Shown piece by piece: positions 4,359 through 21,701 of a stretch of 21,701 nt of DNA. Source of the DNA: a virus; the IMG/VR virus record IMGVR_UViG_3300008117_000638, positions 1-21,701 of that record, one strand, 5' to 3'. Position 1 is the stretch's first letter. Each line of letters opens with the position of its first letter. The notes under the pieces were generated by a model. That model made no database searches and was not told the DNA's origin. It saw nothing but the letters and a program-made list of their open reading frames with translations. The position numbers and the translations under genes are program-made.

Positions 4359-4624
4359 TGGCTAAATACACCAAAGAGGCCGATGAAAAGAAAGACAAGG
4401 GCCTATTAAAAAAGGCTGGTTTTGACAAAGAGCAAAAAGAAGAGTTTGAAAAGAAAGACAAGGCTCACGGCAAAAAGAAGAAGCCAAAGACTCTTGAAGA
4501 GGACAAGGCCATCGATAAGAAGATTATCAAGGGCATAAAGAAGAAAGAAAAGGCCCACGAAAAGAAGGAAGGCAAGAAGGGCGAAAAAGAGGAAAAGAAG
4601 AAAGAAAAGAAAGAAAAGAAGTAA
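4358..4624 (+). CDS. Lys/Glu-rich low-complexity protein
   Basis: An 88-residue protein, the last and longest of the basic chain. Lys makes up 37 residues and Glu/Asp 22, so net charge is about +15. The first ~60 residues hold a few hydrophobics (L-L-K-K-A-G-F, I-I-K-G-I) that could form helices. The C-terminal ~28 residues are almost only K, E and G and would form a single charged helix or be disordered. Similar K/E-rich proteins occur in other phage genomes without known function. It is followed immediately by the terminator at 4631. Confidence 0.6.
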   Translation: MAKYTKEADEKKDKGLLKKAGFDKEQKEEFEKKDKAHGKKKKPKTLEEDKAIDKKIIKGIKKKEKAHEKKEGKKGEKEEKKKEKKEKK

Positions 4625-8726: not shown

Positions 8727-8873
8727 GTGACGAGTTATGAAACACTCATTGCGGAGTGGGCAGCGCTCACTAGGTCTTTTAAAGGTTGGACACTAACGGA
8801 GATAAAAGCGTTATCTCCACGAGAACGTAAGAACTGGCTAGAAGTAGCCCGTTATGTCAGGGAAAGGGATTAG
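8727..8873 (+). CDS. Small tail-chaperone companion protein
   Basis: A 48-residue protein from GTG at 8727 to TAG at 8871-8873, one base after the upstream stop. Sequence features are W-A-A-L-T-R-S-F-K-G-W-T-L-T-E-I-K-A-L-S-P-R-E-R-K-N-W-L-E-V-A-R, matching the short protein that in many myophages follows the tail chaperone and precedes the tape measure. Its frame is open back to 8688, inside the end of the chaperone gene. A +1 (or -2) frameshift fusion with the chaperone is therefore possible, but the GTG start is simpler. It is mainly helical and basic. Confidence 0.65.
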   Translation: MTSYETLIAEWAALTRSFKGWTLTEIKALSPRERKNWLEVARYVRERD

Positions 8874-8874
8874 T

Positions 8875-11397
8875 ATGGCAAATAATAAAATGCTGTCTAA
8901 CGTTCGTGACCTGACTACTGCCGTTGGTCAACTGCAACAAAAAATTGACGCCCTATACAACTCTCTAGATAAAGTTTCAGGTAAAGCAACTGAGGCTCTA
9001 GGGGGTGCGCAGGGCGTCCTACAATCTGGTGGGCAGATAGGCGTTGGTCAAGGTTCTACAACAATGAACCTTGGTTCAGACAACGCCAAATTCCCAACTT
9101 CACAGCCGTCTTCTGGCGGCAAGATGATGCCATCAAGTCTTGGAAACTTTAGTTTCTCATGGCAATTTAGACAAGGAAATCCAGAAGCAAGTTTAATGAC
9201 TTCGCAGGCTGGCGGTGGAGGTGGCGGAGGAGGCGGTGGCACCGGATTTTTTGGTCCTGTAGATGCTTTTAAATTTGGATTTAAAGGTGCCGCAAAAGTT
9301 GGGCTAGGTGTTGCTGCAGGTATGTACGCTGCTGCTCCAGACATATCTCTTCTTGGACAACGAAGCGTTGGATTAGAGCAAGCACTACGTCTTGGCACTG
9401 GTAATAGACAGATGCTTAATCAACAGTTAACTGGTGGATTAAGAAATGCAATGTCAAGCGTTGGTTCTGATGCAATAGTTGCTCCAATTCTTGCAAGCCG
9501 TGGTTTTATGCCAGGAACCTCAAATTATAAAATGATGGTAGGTGAAACGGCTGGAGCGTTTAGATATTTAGGAATTGATAATGCTGCTGCAGCAAGTGCG
9601 TTAGCCAGTCTGCGTTCTGCGCCTACAGGAGCAGCGCTTTATAACCTTGGAATTAATACATATGATGCTGCTACTGGAAAATTTAAGTCTACTGGTGCTA
9701 TTGCTAAAGAGTTAATGAGTACATTAACTGCAGGTAGAGGAGCAACTCCAGAGCAAATTGCTTTTGCTATTCAATCAGGAACTTTATCAGGAACTTTAAC
9801 AGACTTGTTTGGAACAGGCGCTGAAAGAGACATAATGCAAGTTGCCATGATGGATATTGCAAAAGGCAAAAATCCAGACCTTGCAATGCGTGGAGAGAAA
9901 GAAGCCATTCCTATTCTTGAAGGTGTTGGGCAAATGAATTATGCTCAAACAAGATTATATGAAGCCTCAGAAGACAGAATGGTTGAAGGGTTTAACAGAG
10001 CAGCAAAAGTTGTTGATGCGTTCAATAGAGCAATGGAAAAAGTAGTTGGTCCACTTGCAGAACTAAAGGGAGTTATTCAAGGCGCTGGTGGAACAAACGT
10101 AGGAGAAGCCGTATCTACTGGTGTTCCTCTTATTGCTTCAGGATTAAAGGATATGGCTAAGTCATTAACCAGTCTTTTTCCAGGAATAGCAGGAGCAGGA
10201 ATTGCTGCAGGTCTTGCAACGGTAGCAGCAGGATTTACTTCACTTACTGAGATTATGGATGACAAACCACAAGGTGGAGGGTCATCCGGTTATGGCGCAT
10301 CATTTAATGCACAAAGATTGGGTGGAAAAGGCGGAGGTTTATACGCAGCACCAGGTGGCATGGTTACCGCAATGTTTGGCGCCCAAGATAACTCACTATG
10401 GGCATCTTCAGGAGGAAAACACACGGGTACAGATATTGCAATGCCAGTAGGAACTCCTGTAGAAGCAGCCATGGATGGCACAGTATCTAGCACAAATGCT
10501 GGAAATGAGTACGGTACTTCTATAGTGCTAGACCATGGGAATGGCTACCAAACTGTTTATGGTCATTTAAGTGAACGCCTAGTAAACCTTGGAGATAAAG
10601 TTTCAAAGGGACAAAAGATTGCAAAATCTGGAGATACAGGCAACTCAACAGGCCCACACCTTCACTACGAAGTTAGATTTGGACAAAACAATCCGGTAGA
10701 CCCATCTTCTTTAAATACAGCGTACACAGCCACTGGAGTTAGCCCAATAGTTATTGAAAAAATGGGAAACAAATTATCAGGGTACATGGGCGCGAGCGCG
10801 AGCGCGGGAGCATCTGGTAATTACACAGGAAAAATGGGAACAGGAAGTCAAAATAATTGGGCATCTAAACTTCTTGGAAGTCTTGGAGCACCTGTTACTG
10901 ATGCAAACGTTGCGGCTTTAACAACCTGGGCTCGATTTGAAGGCGGACATTGGAAAAACAGTGCAAGTTTTAACCCTTTAAATACAACTTTAGATTTGGG
11001 TGGAAATAAATCAATAAATAGCGTTGGAGTAAAGAAATACGGGTCATGGGAAGAAGGCTTAAACGCAACAGTTAAAACACTTCTTGGTAATCGTTCTTCT
11101 GAAAGAGGATACGCTGCAATTGTAGACGCGTTAAGAAGTAACGCGGGAACTTCAGCCGTATTATCTGCTGTAAATCAGTCTGCTTGGGTTCACGGAGAAG
11201 GCAAGGCAAGTAACTACAATTTCCCACGTGGTGGTGGCGGTCCTGCAATGATGCAGGCTATGGATTCTGGAGCAAAAACAGTAAATATTACTGTTACCTT
11301 TAATCAAGCAGATGAAACTTCTGCAATGAAGTTTGCTAAACAAGTCCAATCATACCTTGATAGAGAAAACAACAATGCAATGATGGGGAGTAACTAA
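8875..11397 (+). CDS. Tape measure protein with M23 peptidase and second lytic domain
   Basis: I choose ATG 8875 (840 residues) because AAAGGGA at 8863-8869 fits it; ATG 8854 in the same frame (847 residues) has no purine-rich site. The N-terminus is a coiled coil, followed by a poly-Gly linker (~residues 113-122), a long helical body and two hydrophobic stretches (~140-160 and ~430-455). An M23/LytM endopeptidase domain spans ~500-620 with zinc-ligand motifs H516-x-x-x-D520 and H595-x-H597. A second domain (~672-785) contains A-R-F-E689-G-G-H, F-N-P-L-N-T-T, Y-G-S-W-E-E-G-L and A-T-V-K-T-L, a lysozyme-like pattern seen in phage tape measures. It sets tail length and probably opens peptidoglycan during infection. 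Confidence 0.85.
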   Translation: MANNKMLSNVRDLTTAVGQLQQKIDALYNSLDKVSGKATEALGGAQGVLQSGGQIGVGQGSTTMNLGSDNAKFPTSQPSSGGKMMPSSLGNFSFSWQFRQGNPEASLMTSQAGGGGGGGGGGTGFFGPVDAFKFGFKGAAKVGLGVAAGMYAAAPDISLLGQRSVGLEQALRLGTGNRQMLNQQLTGGLRNAMSSVGSDAIVAPILASRGFMPGTSNYKMMVGETAGAFRYLGIDNAAAASALASLRSAPTGAALYNLGINTYDAATGKFKSTGAIAKELMSTLTAGRGATPEQIAFAIQSGTLSGTLTDLFGTGAERDIMQVAMMDIAKGKNPDLAMRGEKEAIPILEGVGQMNYAQTRLYEASEDRMVEGFNRAAKVVDAFNRAMEKVVGPLAELKGVIQGAGGTNVGEAVSTGVPLIASGLKDMAKSLTSLFPGIAGAGIAAGLATVAAGFTSLTEIMDDKPQGGGSSGYGASFNAQRLGGKGGGLYAAPGGMVTAMFGAQDNSLWASSGGKHTGTDIAMPVGTPVEAAMDGTVSSTNAGNEYGTSIVLDHGNGYQTVYGHLSERLVNLGDKVSKGQKIAKSGDTGNSTGPHLHYEVRFGQNNPVDPSSLNTAYTATGVSPIVIEKMGNKLSGYMGASASAGASGNYTGKMGTGSQNNWASKLLGSLGAPVTDANVAALTTWARFEGGHWKNSASFNPLNTTLDLGGNKSINSVGVKKYGSWEEGLNATVKTLLGNRSSERGYAAIVDALRSNAGTSAVLSAVNQSAWVHGEGKASNYNFPRGGGGPAMMQAMDSGAKTVNITVTFNQADETSAMKFAKQVQSYLDRENNNAMMGSN

Positions 11398-19898: not shown

Positions 19899-20477
19899 AT
19901 GAAGAGGATAATTGTTTTGCCATTTAAGGATGGCGATATCCAAGATGGAATGCGTAGGTTAATACAGTTAACCCCAGAAGCGGTAGTTGTTTTTCCAGTA
20001 GTGGAACTGCCGATGTTTACTGAATCTATGATAAAAATTCTTGAAGAAACTAATGCAAAATATCATTTGTTCTTTACTGATGGAAATGACGACATCGATA
20101 GCCTAGTTTTAAAAGCACATGATTTAACTATGTGCAATAACCCAATAAGAGAAATTACAAGAGAGATAACCGCCGAAGATATTCTTGCAATGGTTTGGGA
20201 AGATAGCATCGAGGCTCACTTGACTCTTCATGCAGTTGAGGACTTGGCTATAGAGACTTGGAATATCGAAGATGGCCTTGAGCCAATCGAAGTGGAGTTT
20301 GACGATGACGATGAGTCTGACGTGCTCTATGAAGAAATGCAGGATGCCCTTTCCAATTTCATCGAATCCTTTGCTACCTACATCACCAATGGCGTTCTAA
20401 ACACCCTCTCAAAGGCCGTACAAGAGCGCATAAAAGAGGATATGGGCAAAAAGGATGTTGACCCCTTCGGTAAGTAA
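19899..20477 (+). CDS. Unknown protein with acidic C-terminal segment
   Basis: A 192-residue protein with a very strong AGGAGGGG directly upstream of ATG. The N-terminal ~70 residues alternate strands and helices (R-I-I-V-L-P-F, A-V-V-V-F-P-V-V-E, Y-H-L-F-F-T-D-G) as in a small Rossmann-like fold. Then come A-E-D-I-L-A-M-V-W-E-D-S, L-H-A-V-E-D-L-A-I-E-T-W-N-I-E-D-G-L-E-P-I-E-V-E, an acidic D-D-D-D-E-S-D stretch and a helical end. I believe similar proteins occur in actinobacterial phages next to replication genes, without known function. I assign none. Confidence 0.6.
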   Translation: MKRIIVLPFKDGDIQDGMRRLIQLTPEAVVVFPVVELPMFTESMIKILEETNAKYHLFFTDGNDDIDSLVLKAHDLTMCNNPIREITREITAEDILAMVWEDSIEAHLTLHAVEDLAIETWNIEDGLEPIEVEFDDDDESDVLYEEMQDALSNFIESFATYITNGVLNTLSKAVQERIKEDMGKKDVDPFGK

Positions 20478-20486
20478 CATAACCCC

Positions 20487-21461
20487 GTGAAAATACCGCA
20501 GGAGGCGTTTACCGCCCAATTAACCGATTATCAGTTCCGACTACTGGTCGTTCTATGCCGTTTTGCGGGCTCCAAAGGCCGTTTTAAGGCCTCAGTAGAT
20601 GTACTGGGTAGAGAGACTGACAAGAAGTCCGACAAGACCGTCAGAAGGGCCCTTAAAGCCCTAGAACAGAAGGGCCTTGTTTCTCTTTCAAAGACACGTC
20701 GTGCCAATGGGTTTAATAGCCTATTGATGATTGAGATAAGGGACGCAAATTACCGCACTGTAGAGACCGAAGGGGACGCAAATTACCGCACCTCACATGA
20801 CTATGTGACTATTAGTTCACGTGATACTAACCAGTTAGTAGTACCTACTAGTCAATCTAGTAATCAATTAAAAGAGTTTAGAAACACCGAAGGTGTTTCA
20901 CTAAAGGAAGTGAAGGTTCCTATGAAAGGCTATGACGATGGCGACGAATTGGCAGGATTTGGTCTTATTGAGCCAAAGGATGCTCCTACGCAGAAAATCT
21001 CAAAGCGCGACCCAAAGACCCGTGGGAAGAGACCAGAGCATGAGTGGACCCCAATGGATGTCGCTGCAGAATTTTCTTTTAGGGTTGGGCGTAAGTACCC
21101 CCTACTTCCAGGAACCGTCAATGTCCGAGCCCTCTCAGGAGCGCTCTCAAAATTCAGAAAGCAATACGGAACAACCGCTCTCGTAGAACTTGAGTTGCTT
21201 CGTTTGTTTATGGCAGACGAAAGAAACTTCAAACAGATTGGCGATGAGGCTCCAAGTCTTTATAAACTTTATCTTGCATCTTTTGGAAAGAAGATGAATC
21301 AAGCAAGAGAGAACTTAGGATTGCACCGAGTTTCTAAAGAGAAAACTCCTACTGCTAAGATGGCTACCGTAACTGCAAGTGATGGCAAAGAGTTTCAAAA
21401 CTCAATGTCTGGTAGAGCACAGTTAGAGCGTTACGAACAGAGGTTGAGGGGAGCAAAATAG
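20487..21461 (+). CDS. Winged-helix replication initiator-like protein
   Basis: A 324-residue protein starting at GTG 20487; the ribosome binding site is weak. Residues ~8-75 form a winged helix-turn-helix: L-T-D-Y-Q-F-R-L-L-V-V-L, D-V-L-G-R-E-T, S-D-K-T-V-R-R-A-L-K-A-L-E-Q-K-G-L-V. A polar linker (~80-150) joins it to a basic helical C-terminal domain (~185-275: E-W-T-P-M-D-V-A-A-E-F, A-L-S-G-A-L-S-K-F-R-K-Q-Y-G-T-T). Such two-domain proteins initiate replication and recruit the helicase loader. The loader gene follows in a TAGTG overlap, as in O/P-type pairs. The linker DNA contains direct and inverted repeats (see separate entries), supporting a lambda-O-like role at an internal origin. 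Confidence 0.7.
   Translation: MKIPQEAFTAQLTDYQFRLLVVLCRFAGSKGRFKASVDVLGRETDKKSDKTVRRALKALEQKGLVSLSKTRRANGFNSLLMIEIRDANYRTVETEGDANYRTSHDYVTISSRDTNQLVVPTSQSSNQLKEFRNTEGVSLKEVKVPMKGYDDGDELAGFGLIEPKDAPTQKISKRDPKTRGKRPEHEWTPMDVAAEFSFRVGRKYPLLPGTVNVRALSGALSKFRKQYGTTALVELELLRLFMADERNFKQIGDEAPSLYKLYLASFGKKMNQARENLGLHRVSKEKTPTAKMATVTASDGKEFQNSMSGRAQLERYEQRLRGAK
20740..20791 (+). repeat. Two exact 19-bp direct repeats (candidate iterons)
   Basis: GGGACGCAAATTACCGCAC occurs at 20740-20758 and 20773-20791. The 33-nt period keeps the reading frame, and both copies encode D-A-N-Y-R-T (residues 86-91 and 97-102). A period of 33 bp is about three helical turns, so a protein binding both copies would sit on the same DNA face. 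They lie in the linker between the initiator's two domains. Confidence 0.75.
20793..20885 (+). other. Cluster of inverted repeats plus AT-rich tract (candidate replication origin)
   Basis: Directly after the direct repeats come TCACAT-GACT-ATGTGA (20793-20808), the palindrome TCACGTGA, TACTAAC-CA-GTTAGTA (20825-20840), TAGTAG-TAC-CTACTA (20836-20850) and TACTAG-TCAAT-CTAGTA (20846-20862). The sequence then becomes AT-rich (about 20859-20885). Neighbouring inverted repeats share arms, so alternative structures are possible. The encoded peptide here is a low-information Ser/Thr/Gln/Asn linker, which leaves the DNA free to carry signals. Function as an origin is inference by analogy with the origin inside lambda O. 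Confidence 0.5.
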
Positions 21462-21701
21462 TGTACGACGTGAATCAATTGTCGTCTATGAAAAAGCATT
21501 GGCTTTTGCGTACTTCGAATATCCCACGTCGCTTTCTTGGTCTTGAAACTAAAGACATAGTTGAGCGTTCTGGTGAATTGCCTTCACAATACGACCAGTG
21601 GATTGATGATGTTGCTAATGGTCTTGTTATAAAGCAGGTTGGCAACATTGGTACAACTGGTGTCGGTATGCTTTTTGATGGAGGGCCCGGAATTGGCAAA
21701 A
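21461..21701 (+). CDS. DnaC/IstB-type helicase loader ATPase (3' end outside window)
   Basis: Starts at a GTG that overlaps the initiator's TAG by one base; the first 80 codons are visible and the frame runs off the window. I-P-R-R-F-L-G-L-E near residues 24-32 is typical of DnaC/DnaI/IstB-like loaders. The last residues, M-L-F-D-G-G-P-G-I-G-K80, are the end of the first core strand and the Walker A P-loop. The protein would load the replicative helicase at the origin in partnership with the winged-helix protein encoded just upstream. Walker B and the arginine finger lie beyond the window. Confidence 0.8.
   Translation, partial: MYDVNQLSSMKKHWLLRTSNIPRRFLGLETKDIVERSGELPSQYDQWIDDVANGLVIKQVGNIGTTGVGMLFDGGPGIGK

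Follow-up and report, generated by a model that had tools for sequence, protein, structure and literature searches.

A probable replication origin in the linker-coding DNA of the initiator gene of an uncultivated lineage of contractile-tailed phages

Known intragenic origins and the initiator gene of the window

The origin of phage lambda carries four iterons of 18–19 bp, each an imperfect inverted repeat, and the number varies among its relatives, with six in Stx phages. These iterons, an AT-rich tract and a 28-bp hairpin at positions 39162–39189 all lie within gene O, and gene P is next (PMC7466680). In the Bacillus phage SPP1, oriL consists of direct repeats and an AT-rich region inside the initiator gene, gene 38 (PMC6316719), and the Rep boxes of the RepA_N plasmid pSK41 fall in the stretch of rep that codes for the linker (PMC5703833). 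Intragenic origins are already known from these three systems, and by its anatomy the locus described here would be a variant of them and work in the same way.

The window, by which we mean the whole stretch of 21,701 nucleotides analysed, is a contractile-tailed phage contig with sheath, baseplate and tail genes according to PHROG and Pfam scans. Its tail sheath is closest to those of Streptomyces myophages such as BRock (~40% identity), and an actinobacterial host is plausible. The tail module includes an 847-aa protein (8854–11397) with an M23 peptidase domain at residues 522–617, which is probably the tape measure with a cell-wall-cutting domain. Two other exact direct repeats were seen in the window: a 33-nt repeat, GCCTCAACAGGAAATGCCACAGACTTTGGCGAT, at 394–426 and 541–573 within the first, truncated gene, and a short repeat, TGAAAAGAAAGACAAGG, at 4384 and 4447, 63 bp apart. 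The features relevant to the putative origin are the following.

20487–21461, plus strand: initiator gene, 324 aa, GTG start, the last complete gene of the window
20740–20758, plus strand: iteron 1, GGGACGCAAATTACCGCAC, an exact repeat whose type tracks the recognition helix
20773–20791, plus strand: iteron 2, an identical copy of GGGACGCAAATTACCGCAC, at a period of 33 bp from iteron 1
20792–20876, plus strand: near-invariant core CTCACATGACTA ... GTACCTA ... AATTAAAAGA, about 85 bp with short palindromes, from the homolog alignment
20845–20885, plus strand: AT-rich tract, probable DNA unwinding element, the gene's least stable 40-mer
20881–20899, no strand assigned: hairpin GAAACACC-GAA-GGTGTTTC, at the right edge of the tract and directly after AATTAAAAGA
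21461–21701, plus strand: start of the downstream gene, of which the window contains the first 80 codons before the gene runs off its end

The N-terminus of the initiator matches HTH_36 (PF13730; 34.2 bits against a cut-off of 25) in the Pfam scan and also matches several PHROG replication-initiation families; the match to "replication initiation O-like" (E 6.9e-6) covers the N-terminal part only. In the AlphaFold2 model, built with 39 homologs, residues 1–87 form a winged helix, residues 88–167 are a linker predicted to be disordered (pLDDT ~31–48, and ~31–37 at 91–160), and the C-terminal domain is helical with moderate confidence. This agrees with the first-pass annotation, which had placed the repeats in a linker between two domains. 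The top Foldseek match to the model is 4pql_B, "N-Terminal domain of DNA binding protein", and among solved structures the Rep–DNA complex 5kbj ranks third and DnaD sixth, with every E-value above 0.001 and other winged helices scoring equally. We take 4pql_B and 5kbj to be RepA_N domains. A sequence profile search gave no meaningful solved structure for the initiator. Like pSK41, the window encodes a winged-helix initiator whose candidate binding sites fall within the linker region of the initiator gene itself. The protein differs from the RepA_N family in that it matches HTH_36 and contains no RepA_N Pfam domain, the similarity being one of fold only (Foldseek). The chimeric Rep of pPR9 has HTH_36, like the window protein (PMC5703833). 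A further point of difference is that the pSK41 Rep contacts DnaG primase.

About 105 homologous initiator genes were collected from IMG/VR scans, all of them from uncultivated phages. No match to the initiator was found among 50,697 phage records by tblastn, and no relative was found in the bacterial genomes of the genome collection, either by protein or by core motif. One relative, L007, comes from a record of 96,345 bases (the 96.2-kb relative) which is probably complete, because it carries a 127-base terminal repeat. Downstream of the initiator, this record has genes for a DnaC-like loader, a DnaB-like helicase, a primase and an SNF2-type helicase. The counterpart of the downstream gene in L007 (8944–9696) matches IstB (PF01695) and the PHROG DnaC-like loader (E 2.6e-23), which bears out the earlier assignment of a DnaC-like loader after the initiator. 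A gene of unknown function (19899–20477) adjoins the initiator upstream in the window and has equivalents at the corresponding position of L178 and L184.

The layout is that of lambda: iterons between the DNA-binding and C-terminal parts of the initiator gene, then the AT-rich tract, the hairpin and the loader gene. The lambda-like placement claimed at first pass is thus seen, in the same order as in lambda. SPP1 may be likened to the window's lineage by layout as well, with direct repeats in the initiator gene and a set of initiator, loader and DnaB-type helicase (PMC6316719); the loader in the window's lineage is a DnaC-like AAA+ protein and that of SPP1 is gp39.

Iterons and their match to the recognition helix

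The two exact 19-bp repeats with a 33-bp period reported earlier are present at the positions given above and nowhere else in the record. No third GGGACGCAAATTACCGCAC site exists in the 21.7-kb record even when three mismatches are allowed, and shuffles give 0. In the homologs, a fixed core is preceded by two or three repeats that vary in copy number and spacing, so that two iterons in the window and two to three in its relatives stand against four in lambda. The class-A repeat is ATTACCGCAC, at spacings that are mostly 15, 21, 24, 30 or 33 bp, and in every class-A representative the distance from the start of the ATTACC of iteron 2 to the conserved core is exactly 10 bp. Every exact ATTACCGCAC match in three large records (54–87 kb) sits in the linker. 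The class-G repeat is GGAC-N6-GTCC or ATGTCC. Two bases distinguish GGGACGCAAATTACCGCAC, the repeat of the window, from GGGACGCAAATGTCCGCAC of class G, and clear dyads are present in the GGAC-N6-GTCC class only among the iterons of the window and its relatives.

Repeat type follows the recognition helix of the initiator. ATTACC repeats pair with K.SD[KR]TVR helices and GTCC repeats with [NG]V.E[KR]TVR helices in 70 of 70 representatives, with no conflict, and in a wider scan of 103 distinct copies none combines K.SD with a GTCC repeat or NV.E with an ATTACC repeat. In the C-terminal-domain tree, the repeat type switches five times, each time together with the helix, and these switches provide only four independent, well-supported contrasts (sign test p 0.125). 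Linkage could contribute partly to the match, the helix and the repeats being about 100 bp apart. Two records, L182 and L243, have a third helix type, NPSDSTVRRAV, together with a third repeat, CCAGACTGTCACC, while the place in the linker and the downstream core are unchanged. In three others (L088, L100 and L113), class-G repeats occur together with hairpin versions typical of class-A relatives, a combination that suggests exchange inside the putative origin itself.

In the relatives L178/L246 and L184/L275/L276, the winged helix and the repeats are separated by an in-frame HNH nuclease domain (PF01844). The loci are 2001–2663 of L246 (on the same contig as L178), 2001–2723 of L276, and L275, and the domain scores 40.4 and 30.6 bits, above the cut-off. 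Because the domain is inserted while the putative DNA origin is intact, the protein linker evidently tolerates a whole domain. The HNH domain may represent a mobile nuclease that has settled at the putative origin and might, by analogy with known homing nucleases, cut rival origins that are without the insert.

Conserved core, AT-rich tract and hairpin

The core motif was found in at least 120 viral stretches, as a single copy in each among the matches listed. The ratio of synonymous differences to expectation was calculated for 44 representatives, each pair being scaled to its own C-terminal-domain rate. It was 0.09, 0.03, 0.17 and 0.10 in four consecutive blocks of 20772–20876, of which the first two are 20772–20786 and 20787–20816, and it was ~0.5 around the hairpin and 0.87–1.09 at 20967–21446, in the C-terminal half of the gene. 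None of 20,000 random codon sets was as low in synonymous change as the linker codons. The alignment of homologs that had been proposed as a check thus showed a collapse of synonymous change in the linker, and the homologs examined keep initiator-type repeats whose type follows the helix. An overlapping gene is excluded, as the alternative frames across the linker carry stops in every homolog. Because all of these frames are closed in a synonymously frozen linker, the constraint acts on the DNA. Lambda differs here, having a purine-rich tract where the present lineage has a frozen, partly palindromic core of ~85 bp that extends from the iterons through the AT-rich tract. Two further sequences were considered: AAATACCGCA near the gene start (20491) has a synonymous ratio of 0.76 and shows no marked constraint, and a second copy of TCACATGACTA in the 96-kb relative falls within unrelated coding sequence that has no repeats.

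The inverted repeats described at first pass were found, with arms of 7 bp (20825–20831/20834–20840) and 6 bp (20793–20798/20803–20808, 20836–20841/20845–20850, and a pair within 20846–20862), and several of the four share bases. What that description missed is the longest one, at 20881–20899, most of which lies past the end given for the element. Four such inverted repeats per 146 bp were reached by 6 of 863 same-length stretches of the record and by none of 1000 Markov shuffles. The short palindromes are for the most part specific to the window's clade; the exception is the GTACC-centred one at 20836–20850, which is present in 105 of 105 genes, with ATTAG-TAC-CTAAT in 103 of 105. The window and its nearest relative have GTAG-TAC-CTAC in place of ATTAG-TAC-CTAAT, a single paired change. 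The earlier idea that palindromes replace additional iterons therefore holds in part: most of the short ones are not conserved, and the conserved extras are the ~85-bp core and a covarying hairpin, for which lambda has a counterpart in the same position.

The AT-rich tract noted earlier, listed above as the gene's least stable 40-mer, has a nearest-neighbour energy at the 99.4th percentile of the window. At its right edge, the hairpin GAAACACC-GAA-GGTGTTTC folds as DNA with ~-7 kcal/mol on either strand, and the lambda hairpin, GTCAGAGAATTC-TGGC-GAATCCTCTGAC, is likewise directly right of the AT tract. The hairpin exists in 25 sequence versions, with a perfect stem of 6–10 bp in 102 of 103 copies (GAATCC/GGATTC, GTGGCG/CGCCAC, GAAAACAC/GTGTTTTC, GAGGAAA/TTTCCTC, GAAACG/CGTTTC and others), and the peptides encoded there differ (RNTEGVS, SESKGIL, VAQEAPL, ENTSVF, EEKDFL). 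Pairs were counted by stem finding with shuffle and synonymous-resampling nulls; the MAFFT alignment of the hairpin was set aside for this purpose because it put gaps in loops. A 6-bp stem is present in 2–3% of matched 32-mers elsewhere in the genes, and when synonymous codons were resampled for the same protein, ten different stems each had a p of ~0.05 or below. Because conservation follows pairing and is free of sequence, it points to a hairpin rather than a binding site. G–T wobble adds no stem length in 29 of 29 distinct hairpin sequences, which argues, not decisively, for a DNA over an RNA hairpin. Nearly all members of this lineage retain the hairpin, with covariation, in contrast to ten lambdoid O genes, in about half of which such a hairpin is clear.

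Cumulative GC skew had also been suggested as a check, and it speaks neither for nor against an origin in the linker: skew at four-fold degenerate sites shows no step there in four large relatives. A step in third-position skew of plus-strand genes in these four relatives was lost at four-fold sites, probably reflects amino-acid composition and was given no weight. The window contains no DnaA boxes (TTRTNCACA).

A proposed origin, its alternatives and its meaning

We consider it very probable that the linker DNA at ~20740–20900 is a phage theta-type replication origin built like ori-lambda. The first-pass annotation had inferred an origin in the linker, and homolog conservation, the helix–repeat match, the AT-rich tract and the loader neighbourhood, all of them features of sequence, support it. 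By the same evidence, what selection preserves in the linker is the DNA itself: the repeats, a readily melted tract, and a hairpin that varies in sequence but retains its base pairing. In the proposed mechanism, the winged-helix domain would bind the iterons, as the correlation of helix and repeat suggests, and the initiator–repeat complex, with negative supercoiling, would open the AT-rich tract at 20845–20885. The C-terminal domain would then recruit the DnaC-like loader encoded next door, and the loader would place the phage DnaB-like helicase onto the opened strand; both steps are modelled on gene order, lambda and SPP1. The hairpin, immediately to the right of the tract, would mark the tract edge. 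After opening of the tract it most likely functions as a hairpin of single-stranded DNA, because its sequence drifts while perfect Watson–Crick pairing is kept and G–T pairs give no gain; a role as unwinding stop, or as landing or priming structure, is a guess. More tentatively, the hairpin may be a part of the origin that is selected for shape, not sequence, and that fixes the unwinding stop or the engagement of helicase or primase. It may be a general element of intragenic phage origins, because a hairpin occupies this position in lambda and several lambdoid phages too.

The repeats could instead be initiator sites for autoregulation or replication control, that is, an operator or control locus, with replication starting elsewhere. 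Such sites would be expected to show the same match to the helix, the GC skew does not point to the linker, and in some phages the initiator binds more than one region, for example oriL and oriR in SPP1 (PMC6316719). However, an operator has no need for an adjoining tract of weakest duplex or for a hairpin conserved in structure, the site lies deep within the gene, away from its start, and ATTACCGCAC is confined to the linker in the three large records where it is found there; we regard this explanation as improbable. It is still harder to believe that the hairpin and the frozen core are RNA elements of an early transcript, acting in translation control or RNA processing, and not a DNA origin. 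Compensatory pairing would look similar in RNA, and the element is presumably transcribed along with the gene, but the 29 distinct hairpin sequences gain no stem length from G–U pairs, the linker element has no match in Rfam, and the AT-rich tract and the helix-tracking repeats would be left unexplained.

Two further readings deserve almost no credence. According to one, the NYRT peptide was duplicated for a function of the protein and the DNA repeat is a consequence. The frozen synonymous codons contradict this, even though the 19-bp repeats do encode a repeated peptide, DANYRT; moreover, the peptides vary by repeat class (NYRT, NVHT) while the DNA layout is constant, and the linker is predicted to be disordered and accepts the HNH domain. 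The other reading, a packaging (pac/cos) or recombination site, draws on the fact that phage genomes need such a site and that it can lie in genes. It predicts no match to the recognition helix of the initiator, and on the circular map of the 96.2-kb relative the terminase (4.3–5.7 kb) is ~36 kb away from the initiator site (65.2 kb).

An origin in the linker, the reading that we prefer, would extend the lambda type of intragenic origin to an uncultivated lineage of contractile-tailed phages. With about 100 variants, the lineage would serve as a natural mutagenesis series, which separates a sequence-dependent core, iterons that match the binding domain and a hairpin for which only pairing matters. 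The two-base switch between ATTACC and ATGTCC repeats, matched to residues of the helix, would offer a ready-made test of specificity, and with the series the function of the hairpin next to the unwinding tract, a hairpin that lambda has too, would become directly testable.
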